A DNA stretch of 64,000 nt from Pirellula sp. (GTDB lineage Bacteria; Planctomycetota; Planctomycetia; Pirellulales; PNKZ01), in assembly GCA_013822735.1 (NCBI GenBank), contig PNKZ01000009.1, positions 62,001 to 126,000 of the forward strand. Direction: 5' to 3'. Below the pieces are notes generated by a model. It was not told the origin of the DNA. It searched no databases and saw only the letters and a list, made by a program, of their open reading frames with translations. The translations under genes and the position numbers were made by a program. Shown here piece after piece: positions 23,245 through 29,172 of the stretch. Within the stretch, counting starts at the first letter, position 1. Each line of letters starts with the position of its first letter.

Positions 23245-23562
23245 ATGAAGCAAATCGTCGCCGTCGTCAAACCGTACTTGGCCGAGCGCGTGCTCGAGAG
23301 CTTGAAGCGAGCCCCGCTCGAAGCGGTGAGCGTTCACGAAGTCAAAGGCTTCGGCCGACAGAAGAACTATCTCGACCAATACGCCGGCAGCGAGTACTCG
23401 CTGGCGTTTCTGCCGAAGGTCGAGATCGACCTCTGGGTCGAAGACTCCCGCTGCGAAGAGATCCTACGCAAAGTCGTGGAAGCGGCCCGCACGGGACGCA
23501 TGGGAGACGGCAAAATCTTCGTGATGCCGGCCGTGCAGATGGCGCGTGAGATTAGCTTCTAA
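23245..23562 (+). CDS. PII-family nitrogen regulatory protein
   Basis: 105 residues. The PII signature KGFGRQK is followed by a T-loop of normal length, NYLDQYAGSEYSLAFLPKVE, which keeps the tyrosine equivalent to Tyr51 of E. coli GlnB (uridylylation site) but differs elsewhere from the usual GHTELYRGAEY. ARTGRMGDGKIFVMP is the conserved nucleotide-binding B-loop. The C-terminus stops at AREISF, a few residues short of the usual IRTGE tail. It senses ATP/ADP and 2-oxoglutarate in the family. No glutamine synthetase or ammonium transporter gene is near, so its target is open. Confidence 0.92.
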   Translation: MKQIVAVVKPYLAERVLESLKRAPLEAVSVHEVKGFGRQKNYLDQYAGSEYSLAFLPKVEIDLWVEDSRCEEILRKVVEAARTGRMGDGKIFVMPAVQMAREISF

Positions 23563-23566
23563 GTTG

Positions 23567-23601
23567 CGTAGGGTGGGTCGAGCGCAGCGAGGCCCACGCG
23601 G
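23567..23601 (+). repeat. 35-bp inverted repeat, left copy
   Basis: Begins CGTAGGGTGGGTCGAGCGCA. It is a perfect reverse complement of 23970-24004. It starts 4 bp after the PII stop. Confidence 0.9.
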
Positions 23602-23646
23602 TTCTTGATTGTTGAAACCGCCTTGCCGTAACAGACAAGTGATTTT

Positions 23647-23925
23647 TCAACGCCGCATTGAAAGCCCGAGACTTCGTCGCTCGTCCCAATGGATCGTACG
23701 AAGTTGACCGTCAAAATTGGAGACGATGAAACCTGGTGCGCCGGCGAAATGCTGGTCCCAAGCTTCAGGCGGCAAGCCGGCGACATGTTCGATGCGGTAG
23801 TCGAAATACCATCCTTCTACTACCTCTCGGTACTCACCGAGAACCATCCGATACTTTGGGTGCGGACGCGGCAGCGTATCGACGTGAGCCTGAGCGATTC
23901 GGACTGCCTCAATTTGATCGACCAT
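23647..23925 (-). CDS. YrhB / Imm35-like protein
   Basis: 92 residues. AVRIAQAHVDTLPR, then VVEGWYFDYRIEH, then GAPGFIVSNFDGQLRTIHW match the YrhB domain pattern, used in immunity protein 35 families. Such proteins can neutralise toxins in polymorphic toxin or contact-dependent systems, or occur as orphans. No toxin gene is next to it. The gene lies on the opposite strand to PII, alone between two perfect 35-bp inverted repeats, which suggests acquisition as a cassette. The family assignment is by pattern only. Confidence 0.7.
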   Translation of the reverse strand: MVDQIEAVRIAQAHVDTLPRPHPKYRMVLGEYREVVEGWYFDYRIEHVAGLPPEAWDQHFAGAPGFIVSNFDGQLRTIHWDERRSLGLSMRR

Positions 23926-23969
23926 GAAGTTGATCCCACCAGACAGTTCATAAATGCTACGGCACGCAT

Positions 23970-24004
23970 CCGCGTGGGCCTCGCTGCGCTCGACCCACCC
24001 TACG
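23970..24004 (-). repeat. 35-bp inverted repeat, right copy
   Basis: A perfect reverse complement of 23567-23601. It ends 3 bp before the MoxR stop codon. Confidence 0.9.
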
Positions 24005-24006
24005 GC

Positions 24007-25050
24007 CTACATCGCCGGCTTCTCGTATTTCCGATCCGGCGGAATCGCCTTCAGCAGCATGTCTAAAAGCTCTTCGCTTCCCTTGCCGGCCGCTTGGGCG
24101 GCGAAGTTGGCGGCCAGTCGATGGCGCAGGGCCGGCTTCACCACCGCTTGCACGTCTTCGATCGAGGCGTGCATCCGGCCGTAGAGCAGGGCCCGGGCCT
24201 TCGCGCAGGAGATCAGCGTCAGCACGCCGCGCGGGCCGGCGCCCCAGCTCATCCAGCGATTCACAAAGTCGGGCGCTTCGGGCGTATTGGGCCGCGACGC
24301 CCGCACCAAAGCCCAGGCGTACCCGAGCACCTGGTCACTCACGGGCACGCGCAGCACGAGCTTTTGAAACTGCACGATCTCCTCGGCCGTGAGCACTTGC
24401 TGGATATCGCCGAGCTTGCCGGTCGTCACGCGGCGAGCGATTTCCCATTCTTCCCCCGGCGTCGGATAGCCCATGCGAATGTAGAGGAGAAAGCGATCGA
24501 GCTGCGCTTCCGGCAGCGGATAGGTTCCTTCTTGTTCCAGCGGGTTTTGCGTGGCGAGGACGAAGAACGGAGCCGGCAATTGATACACCTTGCCGCCGGC
24601 GCTCACTTGTCGCTCTTGCATCGCTTCGAGCATCGCGGCCTGGGTTTTCGGAGGCGTACGGTTTACTTCGTCCGCCAAGATCATATTGGCGAAGAGCGGA
24701 CCGGCGAGAAACTTGTACTCGCGGGCCCGCGTTTCCAAGTTCTCTTGAATAACTTCCGTGCCGGTGACGTCGCTCGGCATGAGGTCGGGCGTGAACTGAA
24801 TCCGTTTAAACGAGAGGTGCAGTGCCTTTGCCAAGGAGTTGACCAGCAGCGTCTTGGCGAGGCCCGGCACCCCTTCAAGCAACGCATGGCCGCCGGCGAA
24901 GAGCGCCGTGAGGGTTTGTTCAATCACCTCGTCTTGGCCGACGATCGTCTTCGCCAACTCATCGCGCAGGCGGTTGTACATCTGCTCGCAACGCGCAACG
25001 GCGGCGACATCGTTCGCGGCGGGCTCGGCAGACTCGGTGCTGACACTCAC
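24007..25050 (-). CDS. MoxR-family AAA+ ATPase
   Basis: 347 residues from a GTG start with AGGAAG upstream. Walker A is in LEGVPGLAKTLLVNSLAK and Walker B in NMILADEVNRTPPKTQAAML, followed by the sensor-1 stretch FFVLATQNPLEQEGTYPLPE. MoxR ATPases act as chaperones for VWA-domain proteins and metal-centre or envelope assembly. Two VWA genes lie upstream in the same direction. MoxR is usually followed by a DUF58 gene; here it is the last gene of the run and DUF58 is missing. The gap to the upstream gene holds a palindromic repeat, so it may have its own promoter. Confidence 0.94.
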   Translation of the reverse strand: MSVSTESAEPAANDVAAVARCEQMYNRLRDELAKTIVGQDEVIEQTLTALFAGGHALLEGVPGLAKTLLVNSLAKALHLSFKRIQFTPDLMPSDVTGTEVIQENLETRAREYKFLAGPLFANMILADEVNRTPPKTQAAMLEAMQERQVSAGGKVYQLPAPFFVLATQNPLEQEGTYPLPEAQLDRFLLYIRMGYPTPGEEWEIARRVTTGKLGDIQQVLTAEEIVQFQKLVLRVPVSDQVLGYAWALVRASRPNTPEAPDFVNRWMSWGAGPRGVLTLISCAKARALLYGRMHASIEDVQAVVKPALRHRLAANFAAQAAGKGSEELLDMLLKAIPPDRKYEKPAM

Positions 25051-25065
25051 AGATGCTTCCTCTTA

Positions 25066-25200
25066 GGAGTAATGACGAATGTCGAAATCCGAATGACGAA
25101 AGAATGACGAAGCTCAAATGACGAAATGACATTCGAACAGGTTTCGTCATTCGTCATTCGGGCTTCTTTCGACATTCGTGCTTCGTCATTCGACATTTTT
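25066..25200. repeat. AATGACGAA-word palindrome
   Basis: Left arm words ATGACGAATGTCGAAATCC and AATGACGAAAGAATGACGAA, right arm TTTCGTCATTCGTCATTCGG and GACATTCGTGCTTCGTCATT. The minus-strand stop codon of the upstream 1328-residue protein (25186-25188) lies inside the right arm, so the element supplies the last residues and the stop. Confidence 0.75.
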
Positions 25201-28200
25201 AAAGTAGTTGCGCAGCCGCTCCTCGTAACCGTGCGGCGCGGGGCGTTGTGCTTCGGCGCGGATGGCGTTGCGGAGTTCGGCCGGGAGTTTGGCCATCCAG
25301 GCGTCGTCTCCCTTCGGGCGATTGTTCGTCGCGGCAATGTCGGCGGCGTTGCGGCCGGCGTTGTTCACGCTCGGCAGCGACGATTCGGTCGCCTGGGCGA
25401 ATTGCGACGCCAGCTCGCTATGCTGTTGGGCCTGCTTGTTCGAAGGGCCCGGCTGGCCGTTTTTAGCCTGGGCCGACGGGGCGGTCGGCACGTTGCCCGG
25501 TGCGCTCCCCGGTTTCGGCGGGCTGGCCGTTTGTTCGAGCTGCGCGAGTTGCTGCATCGCTTGCGGGCCGGCCATCATTTTGGCCGTGGCCTCGGGCGTG
25601 GAAGGCGCGAGACCTTTCCCCATCGCGGTGCTCGGCGGCGTTTCTTGCGGCGCGCCGGCCGCTTCGCCGGGCTTCGAACCGGCGCCCGGTTGCGGCATGC
25701 CGGCCGTTTCGTTCGGGGCGGCGGGAGGAGCAGAGCCTGGCTGCGCTGCCGGTCCCGGCGGCGGCATCGCTCCGGCCGGCGTCGAGAATTCCGAGGCCTT
25801 CTCCAGCGCTTGGGCGAGCGCCGTGTTGGCCGTTTCACTTTGTCCCGCGACTTCCTGCGCCGCCTGACCGGTCACTTGCGCGGCCTGCGAGAACGATTGC
25901 ATTGCTTCATTGAGCTTACGCGCCGCGGCTTCGGCCGCTTCGCTAATCGGCGGCTGCGCTGGGGCGGCAGGCGCCGGTTGGGCAGCGCCTTGAGGCGGAG
26001 TCATCGGCGGTTGCGCGGCCATCGCTTGCGCGAGAGCGTTGCGTTGGTTGGCGATCTCTTGCGTCGACTGTTGTTGTTGCGACAAGGCATTGAGCATCGC
26101 TTGGGCCAGCGCTTGGTCGCGCTTCACCATCTGCTCGCGGGCCGCGAGTTCGGCGCCCGCGCGCTGCATCGCTTGAGCTGTTTGCTTCTCGGCGGCGGCG
26201 GCTTGGGCCGGGGCCGGCTTGGGTTGCGCGGCGGTCGCGGGAGCGGCGGCTTGGGAGGCCGCCTGCTGCGCTTCGCGCAAGGCTTCGGTAGCGCCCGGAT
26301 CGAGCTTGGCCGCTTGGGCGGCGAGCTTCTGTGCCGCGGCGGCCTGATTCTGCATCTTCTGTCGACCCTGCGCGGCAAGCGCGGCTTGTGCCTGCTCGAC
26401 GGCCTTCTTCGCCTGTGCCAAGTTCTTTGCGGCGTCGTCTTGAGCCTTGGCGGTGTCGGCGGGATTCGATTCCGCAGCGGCCGCGGCTTGGCCTGCTTTC
26501 ATCGACGACTCTTCCGCCTTGTCGAGCGGCTCACGCGAAAGCGGAGCGTGGGTCATTGCATTCTTCTTCGCGTCGGCGATCGCCGCGCTCACGCGCTCCT
26601 GGGCTGCCGCATCGGTCTTGCCCGCCGGTTGCTTGATCGACTCGACGGCCTCGGCCTTCGCCATCGCGGCTGCTTCATCCAGAGCGCGGTCCGCGTCGGT
26701 ACGAGCTTGCTTCGCTTCCGGCTCTTTGCCGTCGAGCGCGAGCTTGGCCGCGGCTTGGGCACTTTTGCGCGCCGCCGCGAGCTTATCGGCCAGCGCATCG
26801 GGGCGGAGTTCCGCCGCCGCGGCCTGCGCTTTCGGCCGGGCCGCGGCTTGGTTCGCAAGGCGCTCCACTTCGTCGGCCGTTTGCTGTTGCCGCGTCACCG
26901 CTTCCAGCGGCGTTTCGGCGCGGCCCTGGTTGTGGTCGTTTGCGGCCGCGGCGGCGCTCTGTTGCATCGCTTGAGCCTGCTCGATCTTGTCGGCTAGTTC
27001 GCGCGCGGCGGCGGCTTCGTTCTTGCCTGCGGCGCGCAGTTGTTCGGCTTCGGCACGATCGAGTGCCTGCTCGGCGGCGGCTAGCGCGAGCTGCGCTTCG
27101 CCATTGTTGCCCATCGGTGCGGCGGCCGCTTGGTCGACGGCCTGCATCGCCGGCCGCAGGGCGGCGAGCTGCTTATCGGCCTCGCGCGCGAGACCTTGCG
27201 CCTTTGCCGCGGCTTGGCGGCGCAGGGCGGCGGCGGCCGCCGCAAGCTTTTGCGCAGCCGTATTCGCTTGCTGGGCGGCGTTGCGGAGCGCCGCCGGGGT
27301 CGGCGGATTTGGTTCTTCGCCGGGCTTTGCAGCGGCGGCCGGTTGCAGTTGATCCGCGGCTGCGGCGGCCGCCGCTTGCGCTTCGGCCAGCGGCGACGCG
27401 GCTTCGGGAGCTTCATGCGCCACGGCTTCGCGTACGCTCTTTGCCACGTCGGCGACGAGCGCTTGTTCCCCGGCTAGCTTTTGCGCCGCGGCCTTATCGG
27501 CGGCCGGCTTCTTGGCTTCGGCCACGGCTTGCTTGGCGATTTCCCGTTCGGCGGCGGCGGCCCGATCAAGGGCTTCGGCGGCGCGCGAAAGCTCGGCGGC
27601 GGCGACGGCCGGCTGCATGCGGCGCACGTCGGCCAATGCGGCTTCTACTTCCGCTTGGGCCCGCTCGAGCGCTTGATCGGCTTTAGCGACTTCTTCTTTC
27701 TTCGCCGCGTCGTCGCGCAGCGGATCGTCGGTCGCCTTGGCCGCTTCGCGCGTCGCCTTCACGACGTCGCGGAGTCGAGCGTCGACCATTTTCGGCAAAT
27801 CGCGATTCTGACCGGCGCGCGAAACGTCTTTCGCCGCTTGTTCCAACGCCGGCTTGGCGGCGGCGGTCGGAACGGCCGGCGCTTCGGCGAGCGGCTGCAC
27901 CTGCGCTCGGGCCTGAGCGAGCGCGTCGCGCGTCGCTTCGAGGTCGGCGGCCCGTTCGGCGAGTTCCGCGGCGTTGCGTTCTTGCGGCATATCGTCGGCC
28001 GCATCGTCTTCGAGCTGCTTCTCGATCGCCGCGAGATTGGCGCGAACGGTGTTCTGCGCTTGCGCCGCGGCGGGGGCTTGCTGGTTGAAGAGCTCGACCG
28101 TCGCGGTTTCCGAAGCTTTGCGAGCTCGTTCCACGAGCGGTGCCGCCGTCGGTTTGTCGAGCAGCATTTCGGTGAGCCGGTCGAGGTCCTTTCCTAGCGC

Positions 28201-29172
28201 CGTTTGCTTCTTGAGCAAGTTCTCGACGGCCGCCTCTTCCTGCGGCGCGGCTTTGGTTTCGGCGAGCAGTTCGTCTTGGCGACGCATCATCTCGCGCACC
28301 ACCTCCAGCGCGGCCCGATGGTCGGCTTGAATCAGCCCTTGCGTTTCTTTGACCTTCTTGAGGAGCACCTGCAAGCCGCGAATGGCGGCCGTTTCATGCT
28401 CGGCGGCTTCGGCGAAGCGCCCCATTTCGATCGACGCCGCGGCTTCATCGAAGTGCAGGGCGGTGTCGGAGGCTTTGAGCAGGGCCAGGCCTTCGACGGC
28501 CGTCTGTCCGACTTCGCCTCCCCAACCGCGTGCTTCGATCAACGTTTCCGTGAGCTTGTCGTAGAGCTTCCGGGCATCGCTCTGATCGGCCAGCGTCGAG
28601 AGTTGTTGAATCTCTTGTTGCCGGCGGGCTTGCGTCGGCAGGGCGATCGTCACTTCGCGAATCACCGTTTCCATGTCGATGAGGCGGCGGACCTGCGCGG
28701 CGACTTCGGCCGTGCGCAAGCGGCGCGAGAGGTTTTGCCGCTCGGCCAACAGGCGGGCCAGGACTTCGCCGATCTTGCGGCGCGCTTCAAGAAACGTTTC
28801 GTCGCGCTTGTCGGTTTGATCTGCCTGGGCTTGCAAGAGAAGCGTGACCACTTCGCTCATCTCGGCTTCGATCAACCCGTCGATGTTTTGCCGCATCGTC
28901 TTCACATCTTGGAAAAGCGGTCGATCCGTGAGACCGTTTTCTTCCAATTGTTGCAGCTGCACATCGAGCAGATTGAGCACCAGCTCACGAGCCAGCTCCG
29001 CGGCGCGGAGTTGCGTCTCTTGCTTGCGACGGAGTTCGTCGACGGGAACGGCTTGCGCGAAACAGGGGGGAGCGCGGAGTGGGGAGTGGGGAAGGCAGAC
29101 GGCCGCCGCGAGCGCTAAAAGTAGGGCGCGGCTCAGGCGGTGATAATTGATGCTATGCGGAGCGCTCGTCAT
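25186..29172 (-). CDS. Large exported Ala-rich coiled-coil protein
   Basis: 1328 residues. The signal peptide is at about 1-40 (ALLLALAAAVCLPHS, ending near CFAQ). The first 350 residues are heptad-like (RKIGEVLARLLAERQNLSRR), and the rest is an extreme Ala/Gln/Glu/Lys-rich repeat region, with AAAAQKLAAQAAKL-type runs, that becomes Pro-rich near the end. It is very probably an extended periplasmic helical rod or scaffold; no enzyme motif was found. Its ATG overlaps the stop of the upstream membrane protein gene (ATGA). The last two or three residues and the stop come from a repeat element. No family name is offered. Confidence 0.85.
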   Translation of the reverse strand: MTSAPHSINYHRLSRALLLALAAAVCLPHSPLRAPPCFAQAVPVDELRRKQETQLRAAELARELVLNLLDVQLQQLEENGLTDRPLFQDVKTMRQNIDGLIEAEMSEVVTLLLQAQADQTDKRDETFLEARRKIGEVLARLLAERQNLSRRLRTAEVAAQVRRLIDMETVIREVTIALPTQARRQQEIQQLSTLADQSDARKLYDKLTETLIEARGWGGEVGQTAVEGLALLKASDTALHFDEAAASIEMGRFAEAAEHETAAIRGLQVLLKKVKETQGLIQADHRAALEVVREMMRRQDELLAETKAAPQEEAAVENLLKKQTALGKDLDRLTEMLLDKPTAAPLVERARKASETATVELFNQQAPAAAQAQNTVRANLAAIEKQLEDDAADDMPQERNAAELAERAADLEATRDALAQARAQVQPLAEAPAVPTAAAKPALEQAAKDVSRAGQNRDLPKMVDARLRDVVKATREAAKATDDPLRDDAAKKEEVAKADQALERAQAEVEAALADVRRMQPAVAAAELSRAAEALDRAAAAEREIAKQAVAEAKKPAADKAAAQKLAGEQALVADVAKSVREAVAHEAPEAASPLAEAQAAAAAAADQLQPAAAAKPGEEPNPPTPAALRNAAQQANTAAQKLAAAAAALRRQAAAKAQGLAREADKQLAALRPAMQAVDQAAAAPMGNNGEAQLALAAAEQALDRAEAEQLRAAGKNEAAAARELADKIEQAQAMQQSAAAAANDHNQGRAETPLEAVTRQQQTADEVERLANQAAARPKAQAAAAELRPDALADKLAAARKSAQAAAKLALDGKEPEAKQARTDADRALDEAAAMAKAEAVESIKQPAGKTDAAAQERVSAAIADAKKNAMTHAPLSREPLDKAEESSMKAGQAAAAAESNPADTAKAQDDAAKNLAQAKKAVEQAQAALAAQGRQKMQNQAAAAQKLAAQAAKLDPGATEALREAQQAASQAAAPATAAQPKPAPAQAAAAEKQTAQAMQRAGAELAAREQMVKRDQALAQAMLNALSQQQQSTQEIANQRNALAQAMAAQPPMTPPQGAAQPAPAAPAQPPISEAAEAAARKLNEAMQSFSQAAQVTGQAAQEVAGQSETANTALAQALEKASEFSTPAGAMPPPGPAAQPGSAPPAAPNETAGMPQPGAGSKPGEAAGAPQETPPSTAMGKGLAPSTPEATAKMMAGPQAMQQLAQLEQTASPPKPGSAPGNVPTAPSAQAKNGQPGPSNKQAQQHSELASQFAQATESSLPSVNNAGRNAADIAATNNRPKGDDAWMAKLPAELRNAIRAEAQRPAPHGYEERLRNYFKNVE

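Follow-up and report, generated by a model that had tools for sequence, protein, structure and literature searches.

A small open reading frame (ORF) that lies between two perfect inverted repeats and fills the gap between two converging genes raises the question of whether gene and repeats arrived as one mobile unit, and of what could have moved them. The locus considered here belongs to a stretch of 64,000 nt from Pirellula sp. (assembly GCA_013822735.1, contig PNKZ01000009.1, positions 62,001–126,000 of the forward strand), referred to below as the window. The host genome (G000) comprises 6.88 Mb in 38 contigs.

Anatomy of the cassette and its gene

The two arms of the repeat (23567..23601 on the plus strand and 23970..24004 on the minus strand) are each 35 nt long and lie 368 nt apart, the right arm being the exact reverse complement of the left (100% complementary), and they bracket a single 92-aa ORF (23647..23925, minus strand). 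An earlier note on this DNA had described exact inverted repeats around one small gene, and both parts of that description are borne out. Its placing of the gene opposite to the neighbours holds for the left flank, a gene for a P-II family protein (23245..23562, plus strand), and fails for the right flank, a gene for a MoxR-type AAA ATPase (24007..25050), which is encoded on the minus strand as the ORF is. The flanking genes converge on the cassette, with the stop codon of the P-II gene 5 nt from the GTAG of the left arm and that of the MoxR gene 3 nt from the right one; minus the cassette, the two stop codons would be 8 nt apart. The repeat proper begins with GTAG (at 23568 on the left and 24003 on the right), followed by a hairpin (GTGGGTC/GGCCCAC, inner part RC-NNN-GY), and the whole cassette from REP to REP measures 436 bp (23568..24003). 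Seventeen head-out pairs were read from the host genome, and 19 of their 34 sides have the 35th base of the arms, a C outside the GTAG, which is therefore common but not fixed. A relaxed REP pattern gives two matches in the window, which are the two arms, and 0 in 100 shuffles. An Rfam search returned 0 matches. A target-site duplication, for which the earlier note had advised looking, could not be made out by eye in the sequences beside the cassette. Downstream of the MoxR gene, at 25186-29172 of the window, lies a 1328-aa ORF very rich in alanine and glutamine, with a repetitive counterpart of 1510 aa in the congener G002.

In Pfam, the bracketed ORF matches Imm35 alone (PF15567; residues 6–44, E 0.0089), with 16.6 bits against a curated cut-off of 27.5, and thus stays below the threshold for membership of that family. 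A search with the family at E 0.001 gave 0 matches in the host genome, which is not among the 5 of 392 genomes of the phylum in which PF15567 was found, and an hhalign comparison of the window protein with four planctomycete homologues reached E 0.059 with a probability of 0.9%. Y1_Tnp gives no match to the ORF at E values of up to 0.1, and sequence searches of the PDB gave 0 matches; NCBIfam gave none for this protein, nor for the SUKH and DinB proteins described below. A single-sequence structure model has a pLDDT of 52.6, too low for use. The GC content at third codon positions (GC3) is 0.55, compared with 0.78–0.79 in the neighbouring genes, which fits a recent arrival, yet weakens the coding signal. 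The protein was found in one of 97 genomes, its own (E up to 0.001), and no relative turned up among 82 pattern stretches of the contig collection genome_contigs, from which the own genome is possibly excluded. Judging from these comparisons, the ORF is probably a gene of the Imm35/YrhB type, and an immunity function would be a guess; the orphan immunity gene suggested earlier is kept here as a possibility, with a family label below cut-off.

A family of GTAG-tagged REPs in the host genome

A search of the host genome with the 34-mer at up to 3 mismatches gave 53 matches, a looser pattern gave 71, and the pattern used for counting (up to 3 mismatches) gave 73 copies; the reversed controls gave 0 in each case. 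The copies open with GTAG, or with a variant of it differing by one or two bases, followed by the hairpin. In an alignment of 17 distinct copies, hairpin pairing is kept in 99.3% of the cells, and an inner pair switches from G-C to A-U, with both sides changed, in 7 of the 17. It is these paired changes that make the case for a hairpin, and not the DNA fold alone, which is only slightly better than that of shuffles (z −0.9 and −1.4). With a tag beside a short palindrome and many copies in the genome, the arms are, by their sequence, of the GTAG class of REPs; a very similar REP is listed for Enterobacter sakazakii by Nunvar 2010 (PMC2817692). The exact REP was found in 40 stretches of genome_contigs (84,980 species, own genome possibly excluded), from three planctomycete MAGs only. 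In the MAG 336R_metabat_93 (L169, L175, L176 and L205), several contigs end close to a REP, at distances of up to about 100 bases, as though assembly had stopped at the repeats.

The spacing between neighbouring copies is bimodal. Forty-six of the 73 copies form 23 compact, gene-free, head-out pairs (REPINs) with starts 53–62 bp apart, head-out being the sole orientation over these distances. Then follow spacings of 405 bp (the window pair, head-out), 460 bp (tandem), 543 bp (head-in), 658 bp (head-out, around a SUKH gene) and 902 bp (tandem), after which they are at least 3.2 kb. Two well-conserved head-out pairs in this genome are stretched around a gene. The window pair, which is one of them, is REPIN-like and not a standard REPIN, since its interior of 368 nt holds a gene in place of a short spacer. 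The spacers of the REPINs are 16–25 nt long, alike in length and hardly in sequence (mean pair identity 0.39 against 0.34 for shuffled spacers, for 15 spacers from 17 pairs read, one duplicated pair included), as if only the ends matter. One REPIN is present with near-identical flanks in two places (L020 at the start of C16 and L021 at C18:61651), by segmental duplication or an assembly fork.

Solitary REPs were scanned for partners with an ungapped comparison at up to 10 mismatches, covering 26 of the 27 (all except C25:43109). Two more have compact partners, one has a degenerate head-out partner, and for 17 of the 26 no partner was found within about 2.2 kb; the copy at C1:630687 looks, by eye, as if it had a gapped partner. 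These 17 bracket nothing, which counts against reading the window pair as a REPIN with cargo. Repeats common throughout a genome without cargo had been named in the earlier note as the mark of simple dispersed repeats, and taken literally this description fits the 73 copies, with 23 gene-free pairs accounting for 46 of them. The idea of a cassette survives nonetheless, since REPINs are in turn regarded as miniature mobile elements (Bertels and Rainey 2011, PMC3116915).

Further cassettes and empty sites

The same repeat was found around another gene, as the earlier note had advised looking for, at G000:C3:399263-399951. This second cassette measures 689 bp, with head-out REPs 658 bp apart and a single gene in an interior of 621 nt. 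The encoded protein matches PF09346 (8.8e-15, 55.9 bits against a cut-off of 25.4), and its sequence-based assignment to the SUKH-1 family is solid. The flanking genes, coding for an epimerase and a PfkB kinase, are again convergent; the stop codon of the epimerase gene is the left GTAG itself, the right GTAG abuts the stop codon of the PfkB gene, and the first ATG of the SUKH ORF lies 6 nt from the REP. In both cassettes of the host genome, REPs and cargo take up nearly all of the space that separates the stop codons of the convergent neighbours, and both cargo genes have a low GC3 (0.61 for SUKH, beside the 0.55 of the window gene). At E 1e-10, a search of 396 genomes of the order for the SUKH protein gave hits in 16, the host genome among them, and in neither the congeners G001–G003 nor the same-family genomes G004–G006.

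Relatives of the host carry sites that are empty at both loci. At the window locus of the congener G002, the convergent P-II and MoxR genes are separated by 88 bp that hold neither a gene nor a REP. At the SUKH locus, the distance between the PfkB and epimerase genes is 7 nt in G003 and about 37 nt in G002, which makes one genome with an empty site for the window locus and two for the SUKH locus. No bare REPIN is present at any of these sites (G002 at both loci, G003 at one), and G003 carries 77 REPs elsewhere, the most among the congeners. The G003 assembly is without the window locus, the MoxR search giving only a 58% paralogue there, and this counts against the reading as a REPIN with cargo; G004 has a MoxR gene that is 80% identical with a different gene downstream. 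In G001, the gap between the P-II and MoxR genes (L090:2846-3750) is filled by a DUF2199 gene and a 100-aa ORF beside another kind of repeat, which shows this gap to be a place where genes come and go, and makes it look like a hot spot for small genes. A look for empty sites in relatives had been proposed in the earlier note, and the opposite finding, the same gene at the same place in all relatives, is contradicted both by G002 and by the presence of the protein in one of 97 genomes.

Homologues in other genomes were scored for inverted repeats around the central gene, loci shorter than 2,600 bases being dropped. This left 12 of 15 SUKH loci, 3 of 4 Imm35 loci (L120 was left out as a fifth), 24 of 29 P-II loci, 29 of 32 Y1_Tnp loci and all five PfkB loci. 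The P-II and PfkB controls scored 11 (24 loci) and 14 (5 loci) at best, while 21 of the 29 Y1_Tnp loci, as a positive control, scored at least 19. One of the 12 SUKH homologues from other genera is bracketed, with a score of 24 (L139; next best 11), and at most one of the three Imm35 homologues is (best score 16), proportions that count against the reading as REPINs with cargo. An Imm35 homologue in another planctomycete genome (L117:1121-1951) lies within a 24-nt inverted repeat that is 88% complementary.

The bracketed SUKH homologue L139 constitutes a third cassette, of 458 bp, in the genome G085 of a family (f7) other than that of the host. Its gene lies between perfect 24-nt GTAG hairpins in head-out orientation, which differ in sequence from the host REP, and its protein, 32% identical to the SUKH protein of the host, matches SUKH-1 with 1.3e-11 and 45.6 bits against the cut-off of 25.4. 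This cassette also sits between convergent genes, with its REPs 3 nt and, on the left, 237 nt from the neighbouring stop codons, so that on the left side it does not run from stop to stop. The REP query GTAGGATGGGTGCTCGCACCCATC was searched in 80 stretches of 20 kb of G085 (1.6 of 4.72 Mb, 34%), where no other copy was found at up to 4 mismatches and one further match appeared at 5 mismatches, as many as for the reversed control. In the 1.6 Mb read, this REP is thus found only as the ends of the cassette, which means that the ends most likely came with the gene, although the remaining 66% of the genome could hold more copies. The same genome holds a REP-rayt-REP unit with GTAG arms (599 bp) and a Y1_Tnp gene inside (6.8e-27), similar to the cassette in layout and different in the gene bracketed. 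The left arm of this unit is a full palindrome with GTAG on both strands, which leaves its orientation ambiguous, and head-out pairs in the G085 sample number 3 with a GTAG head compared with 0–3 for some other heads, so that without such an excess the likeness is one of anatomy and not a statistic.

These observations bear on two explanations that dispense with movement as a unit. According to the first, an ordinary REPIN had settled between the convergent genes beforehand and later received the gene in its spacer by unrelated means. REPINs of the window family are indeed common in the host, but the explanation requires two events at each of two loci, it finds no bare REPIN at the empty sites of G002 and G003, and it sits badly with a REP in L139 that occurs nowhere else in the 34% of the genome read; we regard it as unlikely. 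The second, in which an acquired but otherwise ordinary gene was flanked by REPs in two independent insertions, draws support from the preference of GTAG REPs for the 3' ends of convergent and co-directional ORFs (PMC3733652), and from the mixed nature of the other brackets in the host (GNAT, MarR and small membrane ORFs, described below). Against it stands a random-drop model of 27 solitary REPs, in which at least two head-out bracketed genes arise with p 0.0005, 0.003 or 0.013 for 5,500, 2,000 or 1,000 gaps respectively, in a simple calculation made after seeing the data and with guessed numbers of gaps; by this measure, chance seems a poor alternative. The empty sites, moreover, are without the gene and without the REPs alike, and no other copies of the L139 REP were found in 1.6 Mb on which independent insertions could have drawn. 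Independent insertion is therefore, in our estimation, about as improbable as the prior REPIN.

Proposed movement in trans and its relation to known systems

The matching transposase that the earlier note had called for was not found, as no window REP lies within 1.5 kb of any of the eight Y1_Tnp loci detected in the host genome, which rules out a RAYT beside this REP at the loci checked. Seven of the eight (L032–L039) lie between inverted repeats of other, differing sequence. Two candidates for the enzyme were rejected: L035, which looked like an orphan shared with G003 at 86%, has terminal repeats of its own of another kind, and L147 of G003 likewise has its own repeats. Of the earlier proposal of a cassette moved by a trans-acting enzyme, the cassette is supported by the empty site in G002 and the two further cassettes, while the enzyme is not matched at the eight loci.

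On balance, we consider it somewhat more likely than not that the window cassette is a cargo-bearing REPIN, which could equally be described as a REPtron holding a passenger instead of its transposase, and that a RAYT-type enzyme supplied in trans moved it. The passenger would stand where a REPIN has its 16–25 nt spacer and a REPtron its rayt gene, and the cassette would enter the short gap between convergent genes as a single unit. The ends, GTAG plus hairpin, would be recognised in single-stranded DNA by a HUH Y1 transposase of the RAYT type, provided in trans; RAYT enzymes (TnpAREP) are described in PMC8266576 as cutting single-stranded DNA next to GTAG hairpins. If such an enzyme needs the ends only, anything between two head-out REPs could travel along. 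Scans for promoters and terminators in the cassette, a weak test, gave 0 and 0, and with no promoter seen the cargo is probably transcribed from the upstream neighbour, which would be the MoxR gene for the window cassette. No cassette was seen at two sites; movement, including any current mobility, is therefore something that we infer and do not see directly, which counts against this reading. Still less likely than the two explanations above is an exchange of genes by recombination or template switching, with the REPs as short homologies and no transposase, since, even though no cognate RAYT is visible and the REPs are dispersed and near identical, the empty sites of G002 and G003 offer no REP partner (an ancestor may have had one) and 34 bp is short for homologous recombination.

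As a REPIN with cargo moved in trans, the window cassette can be compared with several known systems. In the 24 GTAG families described by Di Nocera 2013 (PMC3733652), pairs are mostly 20–100 bp apart, the head-head kind is preferred in most families, and the tag supplies TAG stop codons. The host cassettes share with GTAG REPs and REPINs (PMC3733652, PMC3116915) the GTAG tag, the hairpin, the head-out pairing, the position near the 3' ends of convergent genes and the use of GTAG as a TAG stop; they differ in having interiors of 368 and 621 nt with a gene, whereas the spacers given in the available portions of these sources are mostly 20–100 bp and a passenger gene is not mentioned there. With the REPtron (REP-rayt-REP; PMC2817692, PMC8266576), the cassette has in common one small gene between head-out REPs over about 0.4–0.7 kb. 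It is not itself a REPtron, its gene being an immunity-like passenger and not a transposase. Mobile insertion cassettes (MICs) carry a passenger gene between transposon-like ends without a transposase of their own, the ends being those of DDE insertion sequences. The window cassette resembles them in its passenger ORF between inverted ends, without its own transposase, and differs from them in that its ends are GTAG REP hairpins; a search of the host for the cognate enzyme did not find one. The attC sites of integrons hold a GTT core. Like an integron gene cassette, the window cassette combines one small accessory gene, probably promoterless, with a hairpin site; unlike it, it has two REPs instead of one attC, and the sites are scattered. 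There being no GTT core in the window REP and no array, an integron attC cassette was rejected. Searches of open-access literature, outside which most subscription journals lie, turned up among the entries listed no account of paired REPs with any passenger but rayt.

The cassettes suggest that these tiny repeats, normally assumed to mobilise nothing but themselves, are able to transport genes as well. More tentatively, GTAG REPs and RAYTs may form a gene-carrying mobile system in planctomycetes, in which any two head-out REPs could carry a passenger, and orphan immunity or accessory genes (Imm35-like, SUKH, perhaps GNAT, DinB and MarR) would spread between genomes, often stop-to-stop between convergent genes. 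REP/RAYT elements, long seen as selfish or domesticated miniature repeats, would then gain a cargo function similar to that of integron cassettes, and single orphan immunity genes would be offered a route to new genomes without plasmid, phage or integron. The spread of REPs is called poorly understood in PMC8266576, and PMC3733652 treats their benefit to the host as unsettled; where one species has cassettes and its sister species have empty sites, REP transposition would become amenable to testing.

Several further genes lie among REPs and are not counted as cassettes here. In the host genome, two small membrane-protein ORFs with no Pfam match are found among three REPs on C19 (L078:3573-4504), with a second inverted repeat pair inside, a GNAT gene lies between a head-in REP and a REPIN, and a MarR gene lies between two REPINs. 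In G003 (L105:2431-3825), a row REPIN-GNAT-REP-DinB-REP places two accessory genes in series, with the stop codon of the GNAT gene supplied by GTAG. Two of these brackets, around the first membrane ORF on C19 and around DinB in G003, are head-out with one degenerate arm, and the rest are of mixed orientation. Also in G003, a 206-aa ORF among REPs (L096:8243-8863) has a very weak, sub-threshold match to Colicin_E5 (E 0.0052).
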